Shown here piece after piece: positions 1 through 9,737 of a DNA stretch of 64,000 bases (position 1 is the first letter of the stretch; every line of letters begins with the position of its first letter). Under the pieces are notes generated by a model. It was not told where the DNA came from and ran no database searches. It worked only from the letters and a program-made list of their open reading frames with translations. A program made the position numbers and the translations under genes. Origin of the DNA: Flavisolibacter longurius (GTDB taxonomy: Bacteria; Bacteroidota; Bacteroidia; Chitinophagales; Chitinophagaceae); contig JABUMY010000004.1 of the NCBI GenBank assembly GCA_013327885.1, forward strand, positions 248,001 through 312,000, given 5' to 3'.

Positions 1-417
1 AAGCATCTCCTGGTCCCTCATCAGGTGAAATTTACCATGCGCATCGACAGTGCACTCGATGACCGCAATGCCTGGCTCTCCTCCATTGTCCAGGCAGTAG
101 TCGGAAAATCCTTTGAGCAGTTTACCGATGATGACGAATTGCTGCTGTTCGATAAATGCAAAGCCATAATTCTGGAACTTGATAGCCTCACCAATTTATC
201 AAAGGCAGCGATTAACGAACAGGAAGAAGACGTCTTAGGCGTCGAGTTTCACTCCTTTGTGGAGGGTATGAAAAAAGGGCTAGTGCGCCTACCCAAACAA
301 AAAGAAAAAGAAGTAGAAGCGGTAAAACAAAGTGTAAAAACCAAGCTTTCCAAAGACAAGGCCATCAACATGGCAGCCTTGGCAAAGCTTTTAAAAGAGA
401 TGATGAATTATGAATAA
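1..417 (+). CDS. Unidentified protein, C-terminal part (cut by window edge)
   Basis: The reading frame is open from the first base to the stop at 415-417, so this is the 3' part of a longer gene; the GTG at 25 need not be its start. The visible 138 codons are mostly charged helix-forming residues with a Lys-rich tail. I do not recognise the family. It overlaps the next gene by 8 bp, so the two are probably translationally coupled and this protein is likely part of the same sulfur-modification-like operon. In related clusters this place can be held by a large ATPase or a DNA-binding subunit, but nothing here shows that. Confidence 0.7.
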   Translation, partial: KHLLVPHQVKFTMRIDSALDDRNAWLSSIVQAVVGKSFEQFTDDDELLLFDKCKAIILELDSLTNLSKAAINEQEEDVLGVEFHSFVEGMKKGLVRLPKQKEKEVEAVKQSVKTKLSKDKAINMAALAKLLKEMMNYE

Positions 418-1516
418 GAAACTAAGGCATGTTTTGGGCATTTCCGGCGGAAAGGACAGTGCAGCCCTGGCCATTTATTTATTTCAAAAATATCCACAAT
501 TAGATATTGAATATTACACTTGCGATACAGGCAAGGAGTTAGACGAAACCTACCAACTTATTGACAACCTAGAAATATACCTCGGCAAAAAGATCAAGCG
601 GCTGGTAGGGGCACCCAATAGCCATATCGACCCATTCGATCATTTCCTAAAACTGTATGGCGGATATCTTCCTTCCTCCAATTCACGTTGGTGCACCCGT
701 AAACTAAAGTTGGAACCATTTGAAGCCTATGTAGGTGATGATCCGGTCGTATCCTATGTAGGAATCCGAGGGGACGAGGATAGAGTGGGCTATATCTCTC
801 GCAAGTCAAATATTCAATCCATTTTTCCATTCCGAAAGAATATTTGGAGTGAAGATGTTATCAATAAATTTTTGGCAAACATCAACCGGGATTTGGTAAT
901 AGCATTAACCGAAAAGGTCGACTTGGGCAGCAGAAGAGATGTACTGACCAATATTCTAACAAAATTGGTCGACACGTCCTTTAGCCAGTCAGCAAAACTG
1001 AATCGTTTGTTAGATGCTGGCACAAAAGAAACAAACTACTTAATATTCGAGTACTTAAAAACCACTGCTTACCCCTTAGCCCAAGAGCAATATTTCCCCT
1101 TATTGGAAAACGAAGATGTATTAGTTCGGGAGGATATTTTTCAAATATTGAGAGACAGTGGCGTAGGTGTTCCAGCCTATTACGAAAAGAAGGGGTTCGA
1201 AGTTGAAGGAAATAAAGGTCACTATGCTCGTAGTCGTTCTGGTTGTTTCTTTTGTTTTTTTCAGCAGAAAATTGAGTGGGTTTGGTTACATGAGCAGCAT
1301 CCAGAGAAATTTAGAAAAGCAATGGAATATGAAGATGAAAATGCCGGTTTTACATGGAATCAAAATGAGAGTTTAAAAGAATTAATGAAGCCTGACAGAA
1401 TTAAAAGAATTAAAGAAGACTACCTAAAAAGGAATAAAACACAAACCAAAACAACCTACTTGCTGGATATCCTAGATGACTCAGAAACAGAGGGATGTGC
1501 CACTTGTTTTATTTAA
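410..1516 (+). CDS. PAPS-reductase-family (DndC-like) sulfurtransferase
   Basis: The 368-residue protein has the PP-loop ATPase motif SGGKDS at residues 12-17, then RWCT at 93-96 and GIRGDE at 118-123, both usual in PAPS-reductase-like enzymes. Cys pairs lie at 279/282 (CFFC) and 363/366 (CATC at the C terminus). Together with Cys95 these could bind an Fe-S cluster, as in DndC, which activates sulfur chemistry for DNA phosphorothioation. Residues about 155-238 look like an insertion: the segment normally joining FPFR to the EDIFQIL...SGVGVP helix is much longer here. It overlaps the upstream gene by 8 bp. A metabolic CysH role is unlikely beside a DndD-like ATPase and helicase. The family is clear; the DNA-modification role is inferred from neighbours. 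Confidence 0.85.
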   Translation: MNKKLRHVLGISGGKDSAALAIYLFQKYPQLDIEYYTCDTGKELDETYQLIDNLEIYLGKKIKRLVGAPNSHIDPFDHFLKLYGGYLPSSNSRWCTRKLKLEPFEAYVGDDPVVSYVGIRGDEDRVGYISRKSNIQSIFPFRKNIWSEDVINKFLANINRDLVIALTEKVDLGSRRDVLTNILTKLVDTSFSQSAKLNRLLDAGTKETNYLIFEYLKTTAYPLAQEQYFPLLENEDVLVREDIFQILRDSGVGVPAYYEKKGFEVEGNKGHYARSRSGCFFCFFQQKIEWVWLHEQHPEKFRKAMEYEDENAGFTWNQNESLKELMKPDRIKRIKEDYLKRNKTQTKTTYLLDILDDSETEGCATCFI

Positions 1517-1523
1517 AGAACTT

Positions 1524-2624
1524 ATGAAGTATAAAATTACTAAGTGGACTATCAAAAAGCTCTACGAAACTTATAAGAAATCGCAACTGAACCTTAATCC
1601 ACCTTACCAGAGAAATTTTATTTGGACTATTGCTGATCAACAATATCTGATAGGATCTCTAAAAAAGAGAAACCCAATACCGAACTTTTTCTTGCTTGAA
1701 AAGCCTGAGGGGAAATATGAAATGGTAGATGGGCAACAGCGTTCGAGGACAATGATCAGCTATATTGATAAACAATTTGCAGATTTGGAGGGCAGTTTAT
1801 TTGACAAAAAGAAGCACGCACAATTCTTAAAATATGAATTTCCCGTAACAATTATTAGTGATACAGAAGGAGAGTCAATCGAAAAATTCTATGCAATCGT
1901 AAACAAGACAGGAGTCCACTTAAACAAACCAGAAGTAAGGAAAGCAGATTTTTATAACACGAACTATTTAAAATTAGTAAACGAAATTACTAACTCTAAA
2001 GATTTCAGTAAACTACACATATTTACTGATAAATCTCTCAAAAGAATGAACGACATTGAATATGTTGCTGAGTTAGTTATTTTAATCAAGGATGGGCATG
2101 TGGATAAGAAGGAAAATATGGATGAATATTTTAAGAACGATCTGTCGATAGATGAATGCAGTAACATCAAACGAAAGTTCTCCAATGTATTGGGCAAAAT
2201 AAATATGTTAAATCAAGTATATAGAATATCAAATTCTAGATATAAGCAAAAAAACGACTTCTACACTCTTTTTGATTTTATCCTTAATAACGACAATGTT
2301 GATTTAGCTACGTTACAATATTTTTATAAAATCTTAATTCTTATTGGTAAGGATATAAAACCAACTCAAGACAAATGTGAGCCACTTAGGGAATATGCTC
2401 GAAACTGTGTTACGCAATCAAATTCAAAATTGGCAAGAGAAAATCGTTTATACTTTTTCCAAAAACTTTTCTTAAATAAAAATTCAAAACCAAACGCAAT
2501 CCAATCAAATGTTTTGAGATTTTATGGACTCAAATCTGACGATCTAAAAACAATAGATGGATTTCATACAATTAGTCTGCAAAAGTTATCTGCACAAAAG
2601 CCAACCATAGAGTTTGAATTATGA
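1524..2624 (+). CDS. DUF262-domain protein (GmrS/SspE N-domain-like)
   Basis: I chose the ATG at 1524, 7 nt after the upstream stop, because an alternative start at 1476 would overlap the PAPS-reductase gene for 41 bp and add non-conserved residues. Residues 20-60 hold NPPYQRNFIW and residues about 75-80 hold VDGQQR, the DGQQR signature of the ParB/Srx-like DUF262 fold, which in SspE and GmrSD acts as an NTPase and DNA-modification sensor. The remaining 250 residues are AT-rich and helical. I see no HNH (DUF1524) nuclease motif, so unlike SspE or GmrSD it may need a partner effector. It overlaps the kinase gene by 4 bp (ATGA). Confidence 0.85.
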   Translation: MKYKITKWTIKKLYETYKKSQLNLNPPYQRNFIWTIADQQYLIGSLKKRNPIPNFFLLEKPEGKYEMVDGQQRSRTMISYIDKQFADLEGSLFDKKKHAQFLKYEFPVTIISDTEGESIEKFYAIVNKTGVHLNKPEVRKADFYNTNYLKLVNEITNSKDFSKLHIFTDKSLKRMNDIEYVAELVILIKDGHVDKKENMDEYFKNDLSIDECSNIKRKFSNVLGKINMLNQVYRISNSRYKQKNDFYTLFDFILNNDNVDLATLQYFYKILILIGKDIKPTQDKCEPLREYARNCVTQSNSKLARENRLYFFQKLFLNKNSKPNAIQSNVLRFYGLKSDDLKTIDGFHTISLQKLSAQKPTIEFEL

Positions 2625-3523
2625 TCAGATTTTACCAAGATAACATCAAATTGGATCGTGATCCTGAAGAAAACTATCTCCAAATAGATAACATTGATTT
2701 TCGGTTGGACTACTTATCGTCTTCTGAATCAAATAAAGGAGCAAGCTCAAATCTTTTTGTCCTCGTTGATCCTGAGGGTGAATATGATGATCGTGTAATC
2801 AAGATTTGTAAAACTCCATTAGAATATGGTAATAATAAAAGACATACCAGGTTCCGGAGAGAAATAAAAGCTTTTCGCTTAGCTAAGAATAAAAATTTGA
2901 CGAACGTAGTTGAGTTTTTCAGTTCAGGTGAAGTAGAAATCGATGGCTTAACCTTTTTATTTATAATTATGGAGAAGGCAGAAGAGGATCTTGCATCATA
3001 TTTAGAACGAAATAAATTCAGCTTCTCTGTAAATCAAAAGTTGGCATTCTGTGTAAATATTCTCAATGGTATAAAACAACTGCATTCGCTTAAAATTTAT
3101 CACCGTGACATTAAACACGATAACATCCTAAGGATAAATCACCAATTTAAGGTAGGCGATTTGGGTTTGGTCAGATTTCAAAATGAAGATTTTTCGATAG
3201 ATAAGGATAACGAGAAAGTAGGTCCTTTTGGCTGGTTGTCACCCGAAGCCACAAACAAAATGCTAACTTATAAAAAAAATATCGGATTCAAATATGATTG
3301 TGACATTAACTACAAATCAGATATATTTCAATTAGGTAAATTGTTTTGGTATATTTTTCAAGGCAACATTCCGGTAGGGCAGACAGCTCGGGAGGACTAT
3401 CGATTTGAAAACGATATTTATCAAATTCTTTCGCTTATGTTACAGTATGATAAACAAAGACGACCGTCTCTTAATGAATTGGAAGTTATGCTCGAACCAT
3501 TAATGATAAAATACGCTGTTTAA
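2621..3523 (+). CDS. Hanks-type Ser/Thr protein kinase
   Basis: The 300-residue soluble kinase has a VIKICK segment with the likely ATP-binding Lys61, a possible alpha-C Glu81, the catalytic loop HRDIKHDN at 161-168, and DLG at 180-182 in place of DFG. An SPEA motif follows (APE equivalent). All key catalytic residues are present, so it should be active. There is no transmembrane or PASTA region, so it acts in the cytoplasm. It starts inside the stop codon of the DUF262 gene (ATGA overlap), which suggests a functional pair. Kinases occur in other phage-defence systems (PglW, Stk2). The substrate is unknown. It ends the plus-strand operon and faces the minus-strand group. Confidence 0.9.
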   Translation: MIRFYQDNIKLDRDPEENYLQIDNIDFRLDYLSSSESNKGASSNLFVLVDPEGEYDDRVIKICKTPLEYGNNKRHTRFRREIKAFRLAKNKNLTNVVEFFSSGEVEIDGLTFLFIIMEKAEEDLASYLERNKFSFSVNQKLAFCVNILNGIKQLHSLKIYHRDIKHDNILRINHQFKVGDLGLVRFQNEDFSIDKDNEKVGPFGWLSPEATNKMLTYKKNIGFKYDCDINYKSDIFQLGKLFWYIFQGNIPVGQTAREDYRFENDIYQILSLMLQYDKQRRPSLNELEVMLEPLMIKYAV

Positions 3524-3617
3524 TTTTTTGTACCAATTAACTGACTCGTCTTCCAAATTGCTATTGATTGTTCCCCTTAAAAAAAGCAAGAATTTGGAAT
3601 AATAACTATTAAACAAT

Positions 3618-4268
3618 TTAAGACTCTTTTTTATTTTCAAATCTTTTTTTGACCTTAACTTCCTCTCTTGTTCCACGGATCTTATAATAAACTAGGTGAA
3701 GTATAGCCAACGTAGTTGATAAGACAATTAAATAAATTCCATTATAAATGTCACTGTTTTGAGATTGGAAATAGAAACATTTTTTGAAAATGTTTATTAA
3801 TAGCAGCGAAATGAAGATTGAATTGATTAAGGCTAATCCAGCCGCTTCCCAATAAAAGTGTCTAAATTTTTTATAGAATGGCGGAGAAGAAACACCAGCT
3901 TTGAAGTACATAAATTGCTCTAGATTTCTATCTTCAGAATTTTCCAAGAACCATTTCCGGTTTAGATTGAGGCTTTTTACGTATGCAATTATTAGTAACC
4001 TATGTTCAATAACCTTGAAGTATACCAAGCAACCTAACACACAAAGAATAAGTAAAAACATTAGTTGAGTTCCAGCAAGAGAGAATAATACTATTTTGTT
4101 TTCTTTATTATAAACTAATCCGTTGAAACTTATAACTGCTCCGATTAATACAAAATAGAAATTTATACTTCTTTCAACGGCTTGGTAATGCATGTCAAAA
4201 TGCGCATATAACTTTTCGTACTCTTTCAACATGAATTGAAATACTATACTGTCTTTGTTTATGCTCAT
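3618..4268 (-). CDS. Four-helix membrane protein, unknown
   Basis: I prefer the ATG at 4268; an in-frame TTG lies 15 nt upstream. The protein has about 216 residues: an N-terminal soluble helix (about 1-35), a first pair of hydrophobic segments (about 37-57 and 65-90), a polar middle (about 95-145) and a second pair (about 150-170 and 180-200), ending in a Lys-rich tail. I do not recognise the family. The architecture resembles small membrane effectors found in bacterial immune systems, but that is inference. It is AT-rich, lies between the two convergent defence operons and follows a 39-codon ORF by 7 nt. Confidence 0.7.
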   Translation of the reverse strand: MSINKDSIVFQFMLKEYEKLYAHFDMHYQAVERSINFYFVLIGAVISFNGLVYNKENKIVLFSLAGTQLMFLLILCVLGCLVYFKVIEHRLLIIAYVKSLNLNRKWFLENSEDRNLEQFMYFKAGVSSPPFYKKFRHFYWEAAGLALINSIFISLLLINIFKKCFYFQSQNSDIYNGIYLIVLSTTLAILHLVYYKIRGTREEVKVKKRFENKKES

Positions 4269-4275
4269 ATATTTA

Positions 4276-4395
4276 TTATTCAAGTGAACTAATTAATTGC
4301 TCCATTCTAAAACCTAACAGAAATTCAGAATAATAATTATCAAAAAAGCTTCGGATATATTCATCTACTTTCACCTCTTTTTTCTTAACCGCCAT
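4276..4395 (-). CDS. Possible 39-residue protein upstream of membrane gene
   Basis: An ATG at 4395 opens a frame of 39 codons to a TAA at 4276-4278, 7 nt before the membrane-protein start. It begins MAVKKKEVKVDEY and ends with the amphipathic stretch LLGFRMEQLISSLE. The spacing suggests co-translation with the membrane gene. It could be a small partner or antitoxin-like peptide, or the tail of a decayed gene. No strong ribosome-binding site is visible. No homology is claimed. Confidence 0.4.
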   Translation of the reverse strand: MAVKKKEVKVDEYIRSFFDNYYSEFLLGFRMEQLISSLE

Positions 4396-4610
4396 TTTAA
4401 TGGCTCAGCTTATCATTGTACATCTGTAATAGTGAACTTAAACAGTTTATAGAAATAAACAGATGTAAATAGCTTTTCAATTCATTCTTTATCGATCTAA
4501 TTTCTTCAATTTTGACTGCAGATTCAGATTACACCAGTTATAAAGTCTGAGAATAAGCCTTCCAAAGGCAATCCTTATAAACTCAAATCATTTTGATGAT
4601 TTAGGATAAA
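4396..4610. other. Non-coding gap between minus-strand gene groups
   Basis: AT-rich sequence with no convincing ORF or strong hairpin. It lies between the end of the Dnd-associated gene and the small ORF/membrane-gene pair and may hold the promoter of the latter. Confidence 0.5.
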
Positions 4611-5108
4611 TTATTCTTGTTCTAAAAAATCCAAAAAGCAATTCTCGTTATTTTCAAAAAACGCAGGGTCCTCTTCCATCTTTGACCGTATCTTATCAAA
4701 CCCTCCATTTGCATATTCTTCCATCAATCTCCTCAGGTTCAATATTTCCTTTTCCACCTCTTTATCTTCCATATCTTCCATTGCATTTAAGTCGATATCT
4801 GACTTCGTCAAAACGCACATAATTACGTAGTCGGCCACTTCTATTGGCTGCCAATTTTTAATCGGCATAAAATCGTCTTTTTGGGCCCCTTCAGGAAAAG
4901 GTAATCTGTAGTCGTTTTTTAGTCCAACTACAGTCGCATACATATAGATCTCATACATGGTAGAGAAATACTTCCCTTCTGCCCACTTGGCTTTTTCTGT
5001 TCCCGTTCCAGCGGCACCCCCCTGTTCTAATGTAAACTTCTTCATGAGTTCCCGGAAAGCAGTATTGTATTGCGGTTCCCGATCTTTCAATTTTTTGACA
5101 AACTCCAT
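4611..5108 (-). CDS. Dnd-associated-protein-4-like protein
   Basis: The 165-residue acidic soluble protein has an STMYEIYMYATVVGL segment (about 48-62), RLPFP after it, and EEYANGG near residues 130-136. This order resembles the family known as DNA phosphorothioation-associated protein 4, which accompanies dnd clusters; I make the match by eye, not by a search. Its start codon directly abuts the stop of the DndD-like gene (zero spacing), so it is the last gene of the operon helicase, small protein, DndD-like, this gene. The biochemical role of the family is not known to me. Confidence 0.6.
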   Translation of the reverse strand: MEFVKKLKDREPQYNTAFRELMKKFTLEQGGAAGTGTEKAKWAEGKYFSTMYEIYMYATVVGLKNDYRLPFPEGAQKDDFMPIKNWQPIEVADYVIMCVLTKSDIDLNAMEDMEDKEVEKEILNLRRLMEEYANGGFDKIRSKMEEDPAFFENNENCFLDFLEQE

Positions 5109-7295
5109 TTAATTCAGCAATTTGACGTTTGTTGATAAGGTGTTTCTGTTGACTCGCTCATCTTCAGTGATGGAAGGGGTGATCAGGTAAACCTTTCCTA
5201 ATTTAATTTCATCATTGGTGAGCAACTCTTTTCTGAGTTTTTCATTTCGATAGAACTCCTTGCTCATGATGATGCTTTGTTTATAAACCTGGCTTACGGT
5301 TCTGCAGAAGCCGATGGTATAATCTTCGCCAAAAACCGACATAGGCGCATCCGTGATCAAGGTGTAAAGATCGGTTGTACGTGTTCCTTGCCTTGCCGAT
5401 ATTATGGCCATGATAGTGGCCAGCTTAATCAAAATGATATTACCTGTATTCAATTGCACTAAAGGATTTCCAGTATTATCAGTCAGTTCAGGCATATAAT
5501 TACCATTCGAAAGTGCTTTCAGCCGGATAATACCCCTTGCGGATTTATTTCCCGATGTCATAGCACTGTAATGCTTATTGGCTTCTTCTTCAAGCATTTT
5601 GATCAACTGGCTAAACACCCGTTCGCGTGTGGATTGCGCTAAATCTTCAAAATCCTCCAGCACCTTTAATTTGTCAATCATCCAGGAAGGAATTTCGCCA
5701 GTCGCTAACCCCTTCAGTTCATCATTAACTTGTGCCAGTTTTATTTTATTGGTATCAATCTGTTGCTTCGTCTTCAACTCTTCTTCAGCAAAATATTTAG
5801 CCTTCTTTGTGTGCTCTGCATATTCGTTGATGATATTATCAGCGTCGGATAAGTTCAATGCAGCGGATGCTAGCAGGCTCTGTATATCTGAGTCTAGCCC
5901 TTGATACTTTTTATTGAGCTCTCTTTGCTTGCGTTTCAATTCCTGCGCATGACTCAACGTTTCATTGATATCTTCATCTGCATTCCTAATGACATGACTC
6001 ATGCCAAGACCGTTATGGTAAAGCCGTTTGAACTCGTCACTGAAATCATGCTTTGTTAAAGGGTCATCATCTTGATCTTTGATCTTTTCGTCCGGACGGT
6101 CTAATAATTCTTTGATTCTGTTCCAGGCTTCAGAGCCTTTTGGTGCCTCACGGTCGCAAACCCGGCAGCGCTCCTCTTTAAGCATTTGCTCCACATAAAT
6201 GGGCTCAGGAACATCGATAGGCAGTCTGGTTTGCAATTTCTTCATGACAGCCTTTTCCGCATCGATACGAGCCTTTACCTCCGCCATCTTCCTGAGCTTA
6301 TTGTTATTGTAGTTGGCGTACTGCTCACTATAGCTATTGAGCAGGTCTTCCGTTCCTTTCAGTAACCATTTGTTTTTAAATAATTTTTTATGAAATGCGA
6401 TTTGATCGTCAATGATGCGCTGATGTAAATCTTCTAACTGACGCTGCACATTCTTTTTTTCGCTTTCTAATTCTCTGATCTTTTTAGCATCCTGTATTTT
6501 ATACAGAAGCTTTTCAGCTTTATCCTCTGCGTTCGCATGGTTTTCCTTTTCTTTTTCATATTCCTGCGTTAAATAGCTAAGTCGTTCTTCCAGTTGTTTT
6601 TTCTTTTTCTCTAGGTCTTCACTTTTAACTTTATCTTTACTCGCCTTCTTTAGCTCCTTGTCATATTCAGATCTAGCTGTTTTTGCTGCCGCTTCTGCAA
6701 TTGATTTTAACTGATCGAATTGGCTGATATTCGAAAGCACATTGATAGCGCGGGTCAAAGTATCATGCTGATTAAAGTCGATAATCGACTCTACCTGCTC
6801 ACCTTGAAACCACATATAGGGCTTGATATTGTCAGGAAGTATGGTATTGAGTATGCGAGCCTTGTCATCTTCATCAGTAACCAAACTAGCATTCATAAAG
6901 CTCATGTCTTTTTTCCAAATCAATCGTTCACCGTCACTGCCTTCTTTCCATCCCTGCCCATTCTGCGTTAAACTATATTTCCTTTCAATAATATAGCTAT
7001 TGTCTCTATCCGGATTGTAAAAAGTGACTTTCACGGATGTAGTCAATTTATCCTCATTGCACTCGTTTTTCGCCTTATCAGAAACGATTTTACTTCTTAC
7101 TTCCTTTGTGTTCTGAAACTTTTTTTGCTCTGATACAAATACCTGATCATAAAGAGCCCAGTAAAAAGCATCAAACAATTTGGACTTTCCATATCCATTG
7201 TCACCGATAATAACATTCAAACCCTCACTGAAATCAAAAATGTTCTGCCCTTCATAACACATGAAATTTTGTATCTCGATTTTTTTGATAATCAT
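5109..7295 (-). CDS. DndD-like SMC/Rad50-type ATPase
   Basis: The 728-residue protein begins MIIKKIEIQNFMCYEGQN, the usual start of DndD/RecF/SbcC proteins. Walker A is GDNGYGKS at 31-38, a Q-loop-like WFQGEQ lies at 162-167, long coiled coils occupy about 200-300 and 400-560, and between them a CRVC motif (Cys377, Cys380) resembles a zinc hook. A Walker B-like LITDAP lies near residue 649. In Dnd systems DndD hydrolyses ATP and works with DndC in DNA sulfur modification. It sits 1 nt after the 70-residue gene and abuts the 165-residue gene. A recombination SbcC role is less likely because of length and neighbours. Confidence 0.85.
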   Translation of the reverse strand: MIIKKIEIQNFMCYEGQNIFDFSEGLNVIIGDNGYGKSKLFDAFYWALYDQVFVSEQKKFQNTKEVRSKIVSDKAKNECNEDKLTTSVKVTFYNPDRDNSYIIERKYSLTQNGQGWKEGSDGERLIWKKDMSFMNASLVTDEDDKARILNTILPDNIKPYMWFQGEQVESIIDFNQHDTLTRAINVLSNISQFDQLKSIAEAAAKTARSEYDKELKKASKDKVKSEDLEKKKKQLEERLSYLTQEYEKEKENHANAEDKAEKLLYKIQDAKKIRELESEKKNVQRQLEDLHQRIIDDQIAFHKKLFKNKWLLKGTEDLLNSYSEQYANYNNNKLRKMAEVKARIDAEKAVMKKLQTRLPIDVPEPIYVEQMLKEERCRVCDREAPKGSEAWNRIKELLDRPDEKIKDQDDDPLTKHDFSDEFKRLYHNGLGMSHVIRNADEDINETLSHAQELKRKQRELNKKYQGLDSDIQSLLASAALNLSDADNIINEYAEHTKKAKYFAEEELKTKQQIDTNKIKLAQVNDELKGLATGEIPSWMIDKLKVLEDFEDLAQSTRERVFSQLIKMLEEEANKHYSAMTSGNKSARGIIRLKALSNGNYMPELTDNTGNPLVQLNTGNIILIKLATIMAIISARQGTRTTDLYTLITDAPMSVFGEDYTIGFCRTVSQVYKQSIIMSKEFYRNEKLRKELLTNDEIKLGKVYLITPSITEDERVNRNTLSTNVKLLN

Positions 7296-7296
7296 A

Positions 7297-7509
7297 TCAT
7301 TTGTTTAAAAATGAATGAATTTTTCGACCAACCAGTTGCTCACTGTCTTCGTTGACAACTCCGTCAATCCCCAACTTAATGACTTCTACTAATTTGGAAC
7401 TCGACTTTTCCGAGAATCGAATTCTTGCAATTTGTTCGGGACTTAACCTTGTTTTTTCACCAAAACTTTCAGCGGCGGCAAAGGCCTTTAAAATTTCTTC
7501 TTTTGTCAT
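7297..7509 (-). CDS. Small defence-operon protein, unknown
   Basis: Seventy residues, helical and basic/acidic mixed, with the central stretch LSPEQIARIRFSEKSSSKLVEV. It overlaps the helicase stop by 4 bp (ATGA) and ends 1 nt before the DndD-like start, so it is certainly part of that operon. DNA-modification operons often carry such a small protein; I know no function. It is too short and of the wrong pattern to call DndE. Confidence 0.75.
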   Translation of the reverse strand: MTKEEILKAFAAAESFGEKTRLSPEQIARIRFSEKSSSKLVEVIKLGIDGVVNEDSEQLVGRKIHSFLNK

Positions 7510-9737
7510 ACAGTTTGTAGTTCACTTTGAATGGTATAAATGTTCAATCCGTAATGATTACAGACATCTTTGAAAACATCTTCTGTGTAATAGGGGTTGA
7601 TGGCTAGTGAAGCGAAATACATCACGCGTTGTAGTTCAGTTTTGATCATATTCCGCTCGGTCTGATAGGTGTCAGAACCTTGTTGCGAATATTGATAGTC
7701 AGGAACAACAACAAGATCATGGATCACTGCCTGATGTTTATCCGGGTGTCTACGCAAGATTCGCCCTCTTCTTTGTATGAACTGTCTTGGATTTCCAGTG
7801 CTGGAACAGAAGATCGCTTTTTCAGCTCTTGGTATATCAACGCCTTCGTCGAGACACTTCATAGAAGCAATCACCGCGATGTCGCCGCTTTGAAACTGCT
7901 TCAGAATTTCGTTTCGATTCGGCATTCCACTGATGAATTGATTAACGGTGATGCTTTCATTAATTCTTCCGATGGCTCTTGTGTATTGATTGATCAAATT
8001 GATCTCTTCGGCTTCGCCGGTATCATTTTCAAACACTTCTTCTGTTTTTCCTTCAGGAACATAAATAAAGGTGTACTGAAGGTTGCCGGTTTTATGGTAC
8101 TCCTCCTGAAGTATGGCTGTCATGCTTGCCAGTTTATTGGCAGCTTTATGAATAATTCGTTTTCTTTTGAGCAGAAGCCTTTCAACTACCTCATTTTTTG
8201 AAAAGCCATCTGCCTTTGCATTGTAAAACTTAGAAAGTGTCTTGGTAATTTCAACGTATTCCGTAAGTTCTTCATTTGTTAATGTCACAATATGCGGATA
8301 GTAATAGTATTTACACAGGATGCCTTCTTGAATAGCTCTGTCCATCGGAAATGAGAACGTATAAGGCTCCTGATCATGAAAAAACGCTTCCATCACGCTC
8401 GTGCCTTCAGGATCGTAGACTCTTTTAGGTGTGGCCGATAGACCAATCCGTTTTTCCAGCCGAATATGGTTTAGTTTTGCTAAAACATTTAGAGAGGCCA
8501 GGTTATGGCCTTCATCGGCTATAAAAATGGTATCAGGAGGAAGGTTCCTTAAAATGTTTTGGAATTTATCCTTCAAAAAGGTGGCATAGGTACTAATGAT
8601 AATAAAAGAGGTTGGAATTCTCTTAGCTGTGGACAAGCGAGTACCCACCTCTTCTTCCCATTCGTATTTTGAAGACACCTTGATAACTTCCTGAAAGTTG
8701 AAAGCATGTGCTTCTTTTTCCCACTGTTCAACCAAGGTTATTGTAGGCACTAAAATAAGCGCATGATACACTTTCTCTTTCGATCTTCGGTACTCGTTTA
8801 ATACACAGTTTAGTGAGGTGATGGTTTTCCCAGTTCCGGTTGCCATGGCAAAGATTCCTTTATATCCATTTTCTCGCCACCGCTGATAAGCAGTTTCTTG
8901 GTATTCTCTGGGTCCTTGGATGTAGGGGAATCGAGGTTCTTGTACAAATAGATCAATTTGCTTCTCAGCCCTCTCAATTATTTTTCGAAGCTTTTTATTA
9001 CTAGAAATATTTTTCTTTTTTTCAAGAAGATCTTTTTCCTGAATGAGCAATTCGTTTATGTCCTTGTTTCCAAATTCATTTTTAATAGCAATCTGCACAT
9101 CTGTTATATCAACCTGCTCCACAAAATCGGCGCAACCTGTATAAATACTTTCGAAATAGAGGTTTTGACTATCGATCCATTGATTGGACCGCCCATTCTC
9201 CCAGGAAATATAGGTATCGAGTTCTTCAAGGTTTTCAATAAGACCAAAGGCTGTAAAATTGCACGATGCTTTAAAGCCGACGGAATGATTACCGTCGGTA
9301 AATACACCGGACTTGTAATGAGCGATACCCTTACCTTTTTTGGGCCGGATGATCTTGATTTGTAGTTTTTGGTTTCCAATAAGCCAAGCCAAGCATTCAA
9401 AAAAATGTTTGCCATAAGAATCAAGGATGTTTTTCAGGCATTTGATATCGCTAAGATCATAAATGGAACCGCTCACCTTTTGAGCTTGGCCTTTTTTGAC
9501 GGCTTCTTTGTCTTCTTGCGAAAGAATATCGTTAACAACCATCCGCATAGTTCCTCCGGTGCTTAGGAATCGTGCAAAGCCGGGTGAAAGCACGCTAATG
9601 GCCGTAGAACTAAAATAACCTAGCAATAAATCGAAGGTTGCACTGTTGGATAAGGCGTCTAAATAAAATTCTAAGGGTTCATTGTCTCCGCCGGTACGAT
9701 AAGTGCCATCAATTGACCATTCAACATTTTTAAGCAT
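7506..9737 (-). CDS. PLD-like/superfamily 2 helicase, Dnd-type restriction subunit
   Basis: The 743-residue protein has a phospholipase-D-like N-terminal domain (LLLGYFSS at 38-44, half-motif HYK at 140-142 and GFKASCN at 154-160) followed by an SF2 helicase: Walker A MATGTGKT at 298-305, DEGH at 408-411, SATP at 434-437 and motif VI QRRGRILR at 655-662. Proteins of this form occur with dnd genes as the restriction component and also as stand-alone helicase/nucleases. It is the first gene of the minus-strand operon. The start MLKNVEW fits the family. The frame stays open 59 codons upstream to a TAG at 9915-9917 and that segment looks protein-like (see findings). Confidence 0.85.
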   Translation of the reverse strand: MLKNVEWSIDGTYRTGGDNEPLEFYLDALSNSATFDLLLGYFSSTAISVLSPGFARFLSTGGTMRMVVNDILSQEDKEAVKKGQAQKVSGSIYDLSDIKCLKNILDSYGKHFFECLAWLIGNQKLQIKIIRPKKGKGIAHYKSGVFTDGNHSVGFKASCNFTAFGLIENLEELDTYISWENGRSNQWIDSQNLYFESIYTGCADFVEQVDITDVQIAIKNEFGNKDINELLIQEKDLLEKKKNISSNKKLRKIIERAEKQIDLFVQEPRFPYIQGPREYQETAYQRWRENGYKGIFAMATGTGKTITSLNCVLNEYRRSKEKVYHALILVPTITLVEQWEKEAHAFNFQEVIKVSSKYEWEEEVGTRLSTAKRIPTSFIIISTYATFLKDKFQNILRNLPPDTIFIADEGHNLASLNVLAKLNHIRLEKRIGLSATPKRVYDPEGTSVMEAFFHDQEPYTFSFPMDRAIQEGILCKYYYYPHIVTLTNEELTEYVEITKTLSKFYNAKADGFSKNEVVERLLLKRKRIIHKAANKLASMTAILQEEYHKTGNLQYTFIYVPEGKTEEVFENDTGEAEEINLINQYTRAIGRINESITVNQFISGMPNRNEILKQFQSGDIAVIASMKCLDEGVDIPRAEKAIFCSSTGNPRQFIQRRGRILRRHPDKHQAVIHDLVVVPDYQYSQQGSDTYQTERNMIKTELQRVMYFASLAINPYYTEDVFKDVCNHYGLNIYTIQSELQTV

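Follow-up and report, generated by a model that had tools for sequence, protein, structure and literature searches.

SspBCD, PbeABCD and a conserved DUF262-kinase gene pair in a predicted phosphorothioate-based defence locus of Flavisolibacter longurius

The window considered here, a stretch of 64,000 nucleotides (nt) from the 5.7 Mb genome of Flavisolibacter longurius (assembly GCA_013327885.1, contig JABUMY010000004.1, positions 248001-312000), holds in its first 9.7 kb two convergent operons that by homology are predicted to form a phosphorothioate (PT)-based defence locus. The plus-strand operon runs sspB-sspC-sspD-DUF262 gene-Ser/Thr kinase gene, and the minus-strand operon pbeA, an open reading frame (ORF) of 70 amino acids (aa) at the pbeB position, pbeC and pbeD. 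The left edge of the window cuts the plus-strand operon, leaving SspB and most of SspC upstream and outside the window, and 20 kb of DNA around that edge was therefore included (L005, in which window base 1 is L005:10001; L and G numbers are our labels for loci and genomes). An initial annotation had guessed the gene families in the two convergent operons, and each gene it named is an open ORF in its place and of the kind guessed; extension to the left of base 1 brought in sspB and the rest of sspC. The genes are as follows, in window positions unless marked L005.

L005:6274-7203, outside the window, plus strand: sspB (PADLOC SspB, 360.4 bits; Pfam DUF4007, 2.9e-75)
L005:7193-10417, 3' tail at window 1..417, plus strand: sspC, 1074 aa (PADLOC SspC, 1436.6 bits over 13-1049)
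410..1516, plus strand: sspD, sulfur transferase of the PAPS-reductase type (PADLOC SspD, 4.7e-93, 310 bits)
1524..2624 (ORF opens at 1476), plus strand: DUF262/ParB-like protein, 366 aa (Pfam GmrSD_N, 2.6e-16)
2621..3523, plus strand: Ser/Thr protein kinase (Pfam Pkinase, 5.1e-24)
4611..5108, minus strand: pbeD (dnd_assoc_4; NCBIfam TIGR04062, 8e-7, 29.3 bits, under the cut-off of 74.25)
5109..7295, minus strand: pbeC, ABC-type ATPase with C377-x-x-C380 (PADLOC PbeC, 6e-32, best of 53 families)
7297..7509, minus strand: small protein of 70 aa at the pbeB position (by size and position only)
7506..9737, minus strand: pbeA, PLD (HxK) nuclease-like with ResIII and helicase domains (PADLOC PbeA, 1058 bits; TIGR04095, 416 bits, under the cut-off of 600)

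Both the 70-aa ORF and pbeA, and the DUF262 stop and kinase start, overlap by 4 nt. The translation start of the DUF262 gene is likely the ATG at 1524, its first base 7 nt past the sspD stop, because 45/49 aligned rows have methionine there, 41-46 of the 49 are gapped at the listed positions before it, and residues 1-14 of the structural model have a predicted local distance difference test (pLDDT) score below 50.

The modification core is of the Ssp type. Profile searches identified SspB (DUF4007), the SspC ATPase and SspD in that order, with the SspC Walker A residues G49, G52, G54, K55 and S56 kept in 53/53 aligned relatives, the SspD motif SGGKDS in 59-60 of 61, and SspD residues C95, C279, C282, C363 and C366 in all 61. 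The variant sulfur-based defence system proposed initially is thus borne out, by homology, as a PT locus, and the 'DndC-like' and 'DndD-like' labels were right about a PAPS-reductase-type (3'-phosphoadenosine 5'-phosphosulfate) protein and an ATPase, but the core is SspBCD and the ATPase is PbeC. Against the DndC model TIGR03183, SspD scores E 0.0034 and 16.3 bits (cut-off 290.4). The genome has PAPS-reductase matches at four places, namely two strong ones on contig 8, SspD, and one ORF on contig 7 that is read as GMP synthase; among these SspD is the sole one of PT type and DndC is absent, which rules out a DndC/DndD hybrid core. An ordinary metabolic reductase is ruled out for this gene by the SspD match, the strong PAPS-reductase matches lying on another contig. 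As already remarked for the window, no DndB or cysteine desulfurase (SspA) is seen among the scanned locus proteins, upstream part included; elsewhere in the genome there are 18 matches to Aminotran_5, a family that holds desulfurases and other enzymes. IscS was used together with SspBCD (PMC8092258), and SspA in the locus is therefore not required for function. Our phylum sample comprised 395 genomes of the window's phylum (taken as Bacteroidota, in the GTDB sense), 21 of them with SspD. The SspD in these occurs in two length forms, the match being nearly full length in 12/21 genomes and in two pieces, or lacking a middle of ~90 residues (about residues 145-234), in 9/21.

The minus-strand genes, initially described as 'DndD-like', 'Dnd-associated-4-like' and 'PLD/SF2 helicase', are one known module, PbeABCD. 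In the published systems PbeA is a PLD/HKD nuclease with a helicase, PbeB is small, PbeC is a CxC-type ABC ATPase and PbeD is a DndE cognate (PMC6459918, PMC10853773). All of these have counterparts here: a PLD + ResIII + helicase PbeA, a Cys-hook ABC ATPase PbeC, PbeD and, by size and position only, PbeB, for which phmmer gave no relative among 20 loci compared. PbeA residues H140, K142, N160 and E171 are kept in 21/21 aligned relatives (D148 in 20/21), and PbeC residues N33, G36, K37, C377, C380 and D649 in 18/18. The published partner, DndCD, is lacking, with SspBCD in place of Dnd, and 320/553 PbeAC sets are reported without DndCD (PMC6459918); it could be supposed from this that PbeABCD stands here by chance and does not serve this SspBCD as its restriction partner. 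We consider that very improbable. The genome has no DndC, leaving SspD as its only PT-type PAPS reductase; PbeA is found close to SspBCD in 7/21 SspD genomes (our own, G296, G218, G324, G265, G167 and G270); it shares a strand with SspD in L060, L076, L082, L085, L088, L089, L093, L094 and L098; and SspD and PbeA distances correlate (r 0.70, n 16). Modification core and restriction module are of known kinds in a little-noted pairing. No statement of an SspBCD-PbeABCD pairing was found in the accessible parts of the literature searched, most subscription papers being outside its reach. PMC8053081 treats the two as separate systems, a 2025 review lists dndFGH/sspFGH, sspE and pbeABCD as restriction branches (PMC12707154), and PMC7464106 counts strains that have PT-modifying genes together with pbeA-D, with ssp and dnd unseparated; co-occurrence of SspBCD and PbeABCD may lie inside those data. 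In L038 a cysteine-desulfurase-type gene (Aminotran_5) precedes pbeA, and genes of similar length take the same place in L043, L044 and L045.

The DUF262 and kinase genes behind sspD form a conserved pair of their own. Hidden Markov model (HMM) searches of the 395 genomes, in which each genome was represented by its best 5 first-look candidates, gave 496, 476 and 391.6 bits and then 154 for the DUF262 protein, and 387, 367 and 358 bits and then 92 for the kinase; both subfamilies are discrete, while any DUF262 match at 1e-15 was found by a wider HMM in 68/395 genomes. Both subfamilies are present in one and the same set of 3/395 genomes, all with SspD (Fisher 1.3e-4), and neither was found by HMM in any of the 374 SspD-less genomes. 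In these three (our own, G188 and G385) the pair lies behind sspD, the DUF262 gene of G188 being split by a frameshift. Since only 3/21 SspD genomes have it, the pair is optional in Ssp systems. A scan not conditioned on Ssp, made with the DUF262 alignment over one genome per species for 84,980 species (by two peptide patterns; members with neither are missed), returned 46 loci. Many are from metagenome bins, and record titles name Bacteroidota, Ignavibacteria, Nitrospirota, Aminicenantes, Elusimicrobia, Syntrophaceae, Brocadia and Sulfurospirillum. The kinase is present in 45/46, the exception being L072, where the contig ends right behind DUF262. SspD, whole or partial, is present in 42/46 (fragments only in L072 and L091), SspC in 38, SspB in 34 and a strong PbeA match in 15, with two further weak ones (54 and 49 bits); no second DUF262 ORF was found in any of the 46. 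Four stretches are without SspD (L081, L083, L086 and L099), L081 and L099 being cut by contig ends, and at E<=1e-10 no SspD was found in the assemblies of these four or of L072. For the counts below, the 46 scan loci were joined by our own and L040 to give 48 unique loci; L042 was dropped, as L042 and L067 look like one locus with the same gene order. The gap counts, which like the 48-row kinase alignment hold that locus twice, put DUF262 less than 150 nt from SspD in 36/43 cases and the kinase less than 150 nt from DUF262 in 47/48, L078 having a gap of 1157 nt. In six loci (L064, L075, L082, L085, L089 and L094) thousands of bases separate the pair from sspD. The combination of genes had at first been thought unknown; this no longer applies to the ATPase, dnd_assoc_4 and PLD/SF2 helicase genes of the published PbeABCD, but does for the DUF262-kinase pair, of which no description was found in the accessible literature (with the reach given above). 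The pair is thus a conserved, apparently undescribed component, with a strong association and a function that we infer.

Distant relatives are also carried on plasmids, where tblastn found 23 records, eight of which were examined around the match. In two Asticcacaulis plasmids the DUF262-kinase pair lies beside SspBCD, a desulfurase and DndB. A Pseudanabaena plasmid has an FtsK-type gene, DUF262, kinase and desulfurase consecutively, with SspB, SspC and a two-frame SspD ~10-17 kb off on the same plasmid; this SspD is unannotated and spread over two frames (L111:5531-6356, minus strand, approximate), and a PemK/MazF toxin gene separates it from SspC. On a Sphingopyxis plasmid (L106:7998-10456) an FtsK-type gene and a DUF262 gene are followed by an IS1380-family transposase at the expected place of the kinase. 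In the Rhizobium, Sulfurovum, Rhodococcus and Pseudoalteromonas plasmid stretches, neither the kinase model nor the Ssp models found a match. A family model built from four DUF262 sequences scored the 4 linked plasmid DUF262s at 149-183 bits, 4 unlinked plasmid ones at 81-113 and 7 from SspD-less genomes at 81-111. On viral contigs, 33 stretches matched a pattern and none encoded a relative.

The only Pfam match of the DUF262 protein at E<=0.1 is GmrSD_N, with no match to the DUF1524 HNH nuclease, and the protein was for this reason not identified as SspE. It has DGQQR, the GTPase motif of SspE, in 47/48 relatives, the miss being the frameshifted L040 piece, and P-x-Y-Q in 45/48, resembling the SspE pocket P61/Y63/Q64 (PMC13251355). 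In SspE and DndI a tyrosine pocket senses PT and DGQQR drives nucleoside triphosphate (NTP) hydrolysis, and the N-terminal domain of SspE restrains its nuclease domain (PMC9646914, PMC13251355, PMC11662687). In the model of the protein (mean pLDDT 90.3) an alpha/beta part at the N terminus is followed by a C-terminal half made up mostly of helices, in which R255, Q258, N260, D261, F262, Y307, A308, C311, Q314, N316, R321 and R324 are invariant. A sequence profile run against solved structures matched BrxU alone, and weakly (4e-4). In the kinase, K61, E81, H161-R162-D163, K165, N168, D180, G182, P208 and E209 are invariant in 48/48 rows, and its nearest solved relatives by sequence are TTK/Mps1, then IRE1, StkP and PknB.

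We favour, with slightly less than even confidence, a three-part PT defence locus in which SspBCD would mark, PbeABCD restrict, and the DUF262 protein sense the mark and control the kinase. Judged by homology, SspB, SspC and SspD would place sulfur in the host DNA backbone together with a cysteine desulfurase whose gene lies elsewhere, and PbeABCD would attack or block unmarked DNA in the manner of the published module. The DUF262 protein and the kinase would act as one unit, presumably in physical contact. The former may be a sensor of the SspE kind, with an NTPase cycle that reacts to DNA with or without the mark, and would control a separate kinase instead of a fused HNH nuclease; the kinase would then phosphorylate cell or defence proteins during infection. 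The pair is conserved, has its active-site residues intact, is nearly always found with SspBCD and is found with several restriction modules, and kinase signalling in this locus is plausible. That the pair amounts to a DNA-mark-gated kinase switch, a ParB-like NTPase reading the PT state and passing it to protein phosphorylation that would shut the infected cell down or license the attached restriction module, is a tentative proposal, to which we give somewhat less credence than to the three-part reading.

A number of observations speak against this reading, and the first concern the sensor. The pocket tyrosine is also present in 3/5 DUF262 proteins unlinked to Ssp, and 4 plasmid DUF262s beside Ssp or FtsK-type genes have phenylalanine in its place; the tyrosine pocket was accordingly rejected as proof of PT sensing, since unlinked control proteins share it, and P-x-Y-Q and DGQQR are not diagnostic of PT sensing. 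Foldseek with the DUF262 model returned no solved structure at E<=0.001, and its order had ParB-type proteins and BrxU on top and SspE 16th (probability 0.28). The best PADLOC matches are NsnA, PD-T4-2_A and a type II restriction endonuclease model, none of them named SspE. The others concern linkage and inheritance. In L083 (L083:2016-9562) and L086 the pair has wide flanks and no Ssp. Distances of DUF262 and SspD correlate with r 0.53, against 0.80 for SspD and SspC. Our own pair is nearest to that of Niabella L058 (68% identity for DUF262 and 74% for the kinase), a locus with a GHKL gene, beside which it also stands on a joint tree, so that the pair has partly been inherited apart from the core. 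On the same tree Pbe loci show some clustering (10 changes of label, with 11/500 shuffles as low). A rival reading is that the two genes are an independent defence or toxin-antitoxin pair, the kinase being a toxin and DUF262 its guard, which settled behind sspD without reading PT; the partly separate inheritance of pair and core, the two apparent orphans (L083, L086) and the weaker correlation with SspD speak for it. We nevertheless judge it unlikely, for the pair is in 0/374 of the SspD-less genomes sampled and its linkage to Ssp holds across phyla and on plasmids. A strawberry-notch-type helicase gene was seen near the pair in L083.

The tree of DUF262 and kinase was a quick one, with 10/42 inner branches open. 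Its Pbe/GHKL labels change at least 8 times, and the GHKL label is not clustered (120/500 shuffles as low). Distances of DUF262 and kinase correlate with r=0.86, the second highest of 16 gene pairs tested, which speaks for the two evolving in a coupled way. Pontibacter L071 has the nearest relatives of our own SspB, SspD, PbeA, PbeC and PbeD (54-69% identity) and comes second for SspC. Because the core is nearest L071 but DUF262 and kinase are nearest L058, and because the labels on the tree switch, the pair has itself been exchanged among Ssp loci.

Neighbour clustering over 49 loci (48 unique) found PbeC in 16/48 unique loci, and hence the plus- and minus-strand groups together elsewhere, as had been asked of the initial proposal. 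A gene for a GHKL-type ATPase is in 17/48, and both are in 0/48 (1.3e-4 if the loci are independent). With 2 PLD/GHKL loci and 1 FtsK-type, another known or candidate restriction module is visible in 36/48 unique loci. The ATPase is of ~820 aa (HATPase_c_3; e.g. L101:12051-14609, minus strand, and L040:7675-10098, plus strand), two members scanned against PADLOC had no match, and we regard it as a candidate undescribed PT effector. In L064:5371-9788 (minus strand) and L087:14936-19262 (minus strand) a third module consists of a 318-aa PLD-like protein, a GHKL protein partly like MzaB and a weakly PbeA-like protein of 536-547 aa. DUF262-kinase pairs stand beside FtsK-type genes in L103 and L105; in the former, from a Sulfurospirillum bin (L103:10011-18518), SspBCD-DUF262-kinase is followed by an AAA-type gene, one unscanned gene and one that carries an FtsK_SpoIIIE domain at its C terminus, as in SspFGH. 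SspBCD and the pair without a recognised module are seen in L075, L095, L097 and L100. So regular a companion could suggest that the pair regulates the restriction module or SspBCD, the kinase not being itself an effector but permitting or restraining restriction by phosphorylating SspB/C/D or whichever of PbeABCD, the GHKL ATPase and the FtsK-type set is present, and phosphorylation by a phage kinase has been reported to inactivate DndFGH (PMC12345140). As the pair accompanies several different modules, it is difficult to imagine one particular substrate among these, and L100 is without any recognised module, as is L095, of which only 3.5 kb is visible past the kinase; both also carry SspA. 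We hold such a regulatory role to be somewhat unlikely.

Further genes at the locus have no evident part in the system. A membrane-type protein of 221 aa is encoded between the operons (3618-4283, minus strand; sub-threshold 8xMP/DUF6463 similarity). Just upstream of sspB (L005:3484-5693) are two predicted nuclease genes, one with PDDEXK_4 (PADLOC PDC-S26) and one with NucS_C and DUF7669 (PADLOC PDC-S02), and a 113-aa gene is also found upstream of sspB. All four were rejected as system parts, phmmer at E<=1e-3 giving no relative in the 46 loci. The VIT-domain protein at the left border (L005:103-3099) has a 91% identical copy in the same genome (contig 19:24926-27931). A search for an empty site within the genus found the right-flank gene in 3/18 genomes and the left-flank gene in 6/18, our own being counted in both.

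It has been reported that 2,211/2,678 sspBCD sets have neither SspE nor SspFGH nearby, and other partners have been asked about (PMC8092258). This locus and its relatives give named candidates for such partners, namely PbeABCD, the GHKL ATPase and above all the DUF262-kinase pair, which occurs alongside several of the others. Should the pair read PT, protein phosphorylation in bacteria would be under the control of a DNA backbone mark and PT defence would gain a signalling arm; nicking and replication block would then be joined by a third output of PT sensing, common to Ssp systems in many phyla.

Among known systems, BREX/Pgl (PglW), MADS (Mad6) and PD-T4-6 also combine a Ser/Thr kinase with modification-based defence. 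The best PADLOC match of the kinase is a mad6 model (3.4e-29); in the NCBIfam searches, however, it falls far short of both cut-offs (Mad6, 38.6 of 460 bits; PglW, 35.7 of 990 bits), and the core here is PT, not methylation. The archaeal DndCDEA-PbeABCD system (PMC6459918) has the same PbeA-B-C-D module in the same order, but the core here is SspBCD instead of Dnd and the DUF262-kinase pair is extra. SspABCD-SspFGH (PMC8092258) likewise combines an SspBCD core with a separate restriction module; it is described there, as far as the accessible part goes, without DUF262 or kinase, and no FtsK match (SspH) was found among the scanned locus proteins. IscS-DndBCDE-DndI (PMC11662687) shares a DUF262 NTPase, reported as the PT sensor in that system, where it is fused to an HNH nuclease for which the DUF262 protein here has no match. 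In SspABCD-SspE, the PT-sensing Ssp system, the SspBCD core is also adjacent to a DUF262 protein with DGQQR and P-x-Y-Q-R; the present locus differs in having no DUF1524 HNH match, in the separate kinase gene that follows and in the addition of PbeABCD; where SspE has its HNH nuclease the DUF262 protein here has a helical half and a separate kinase.

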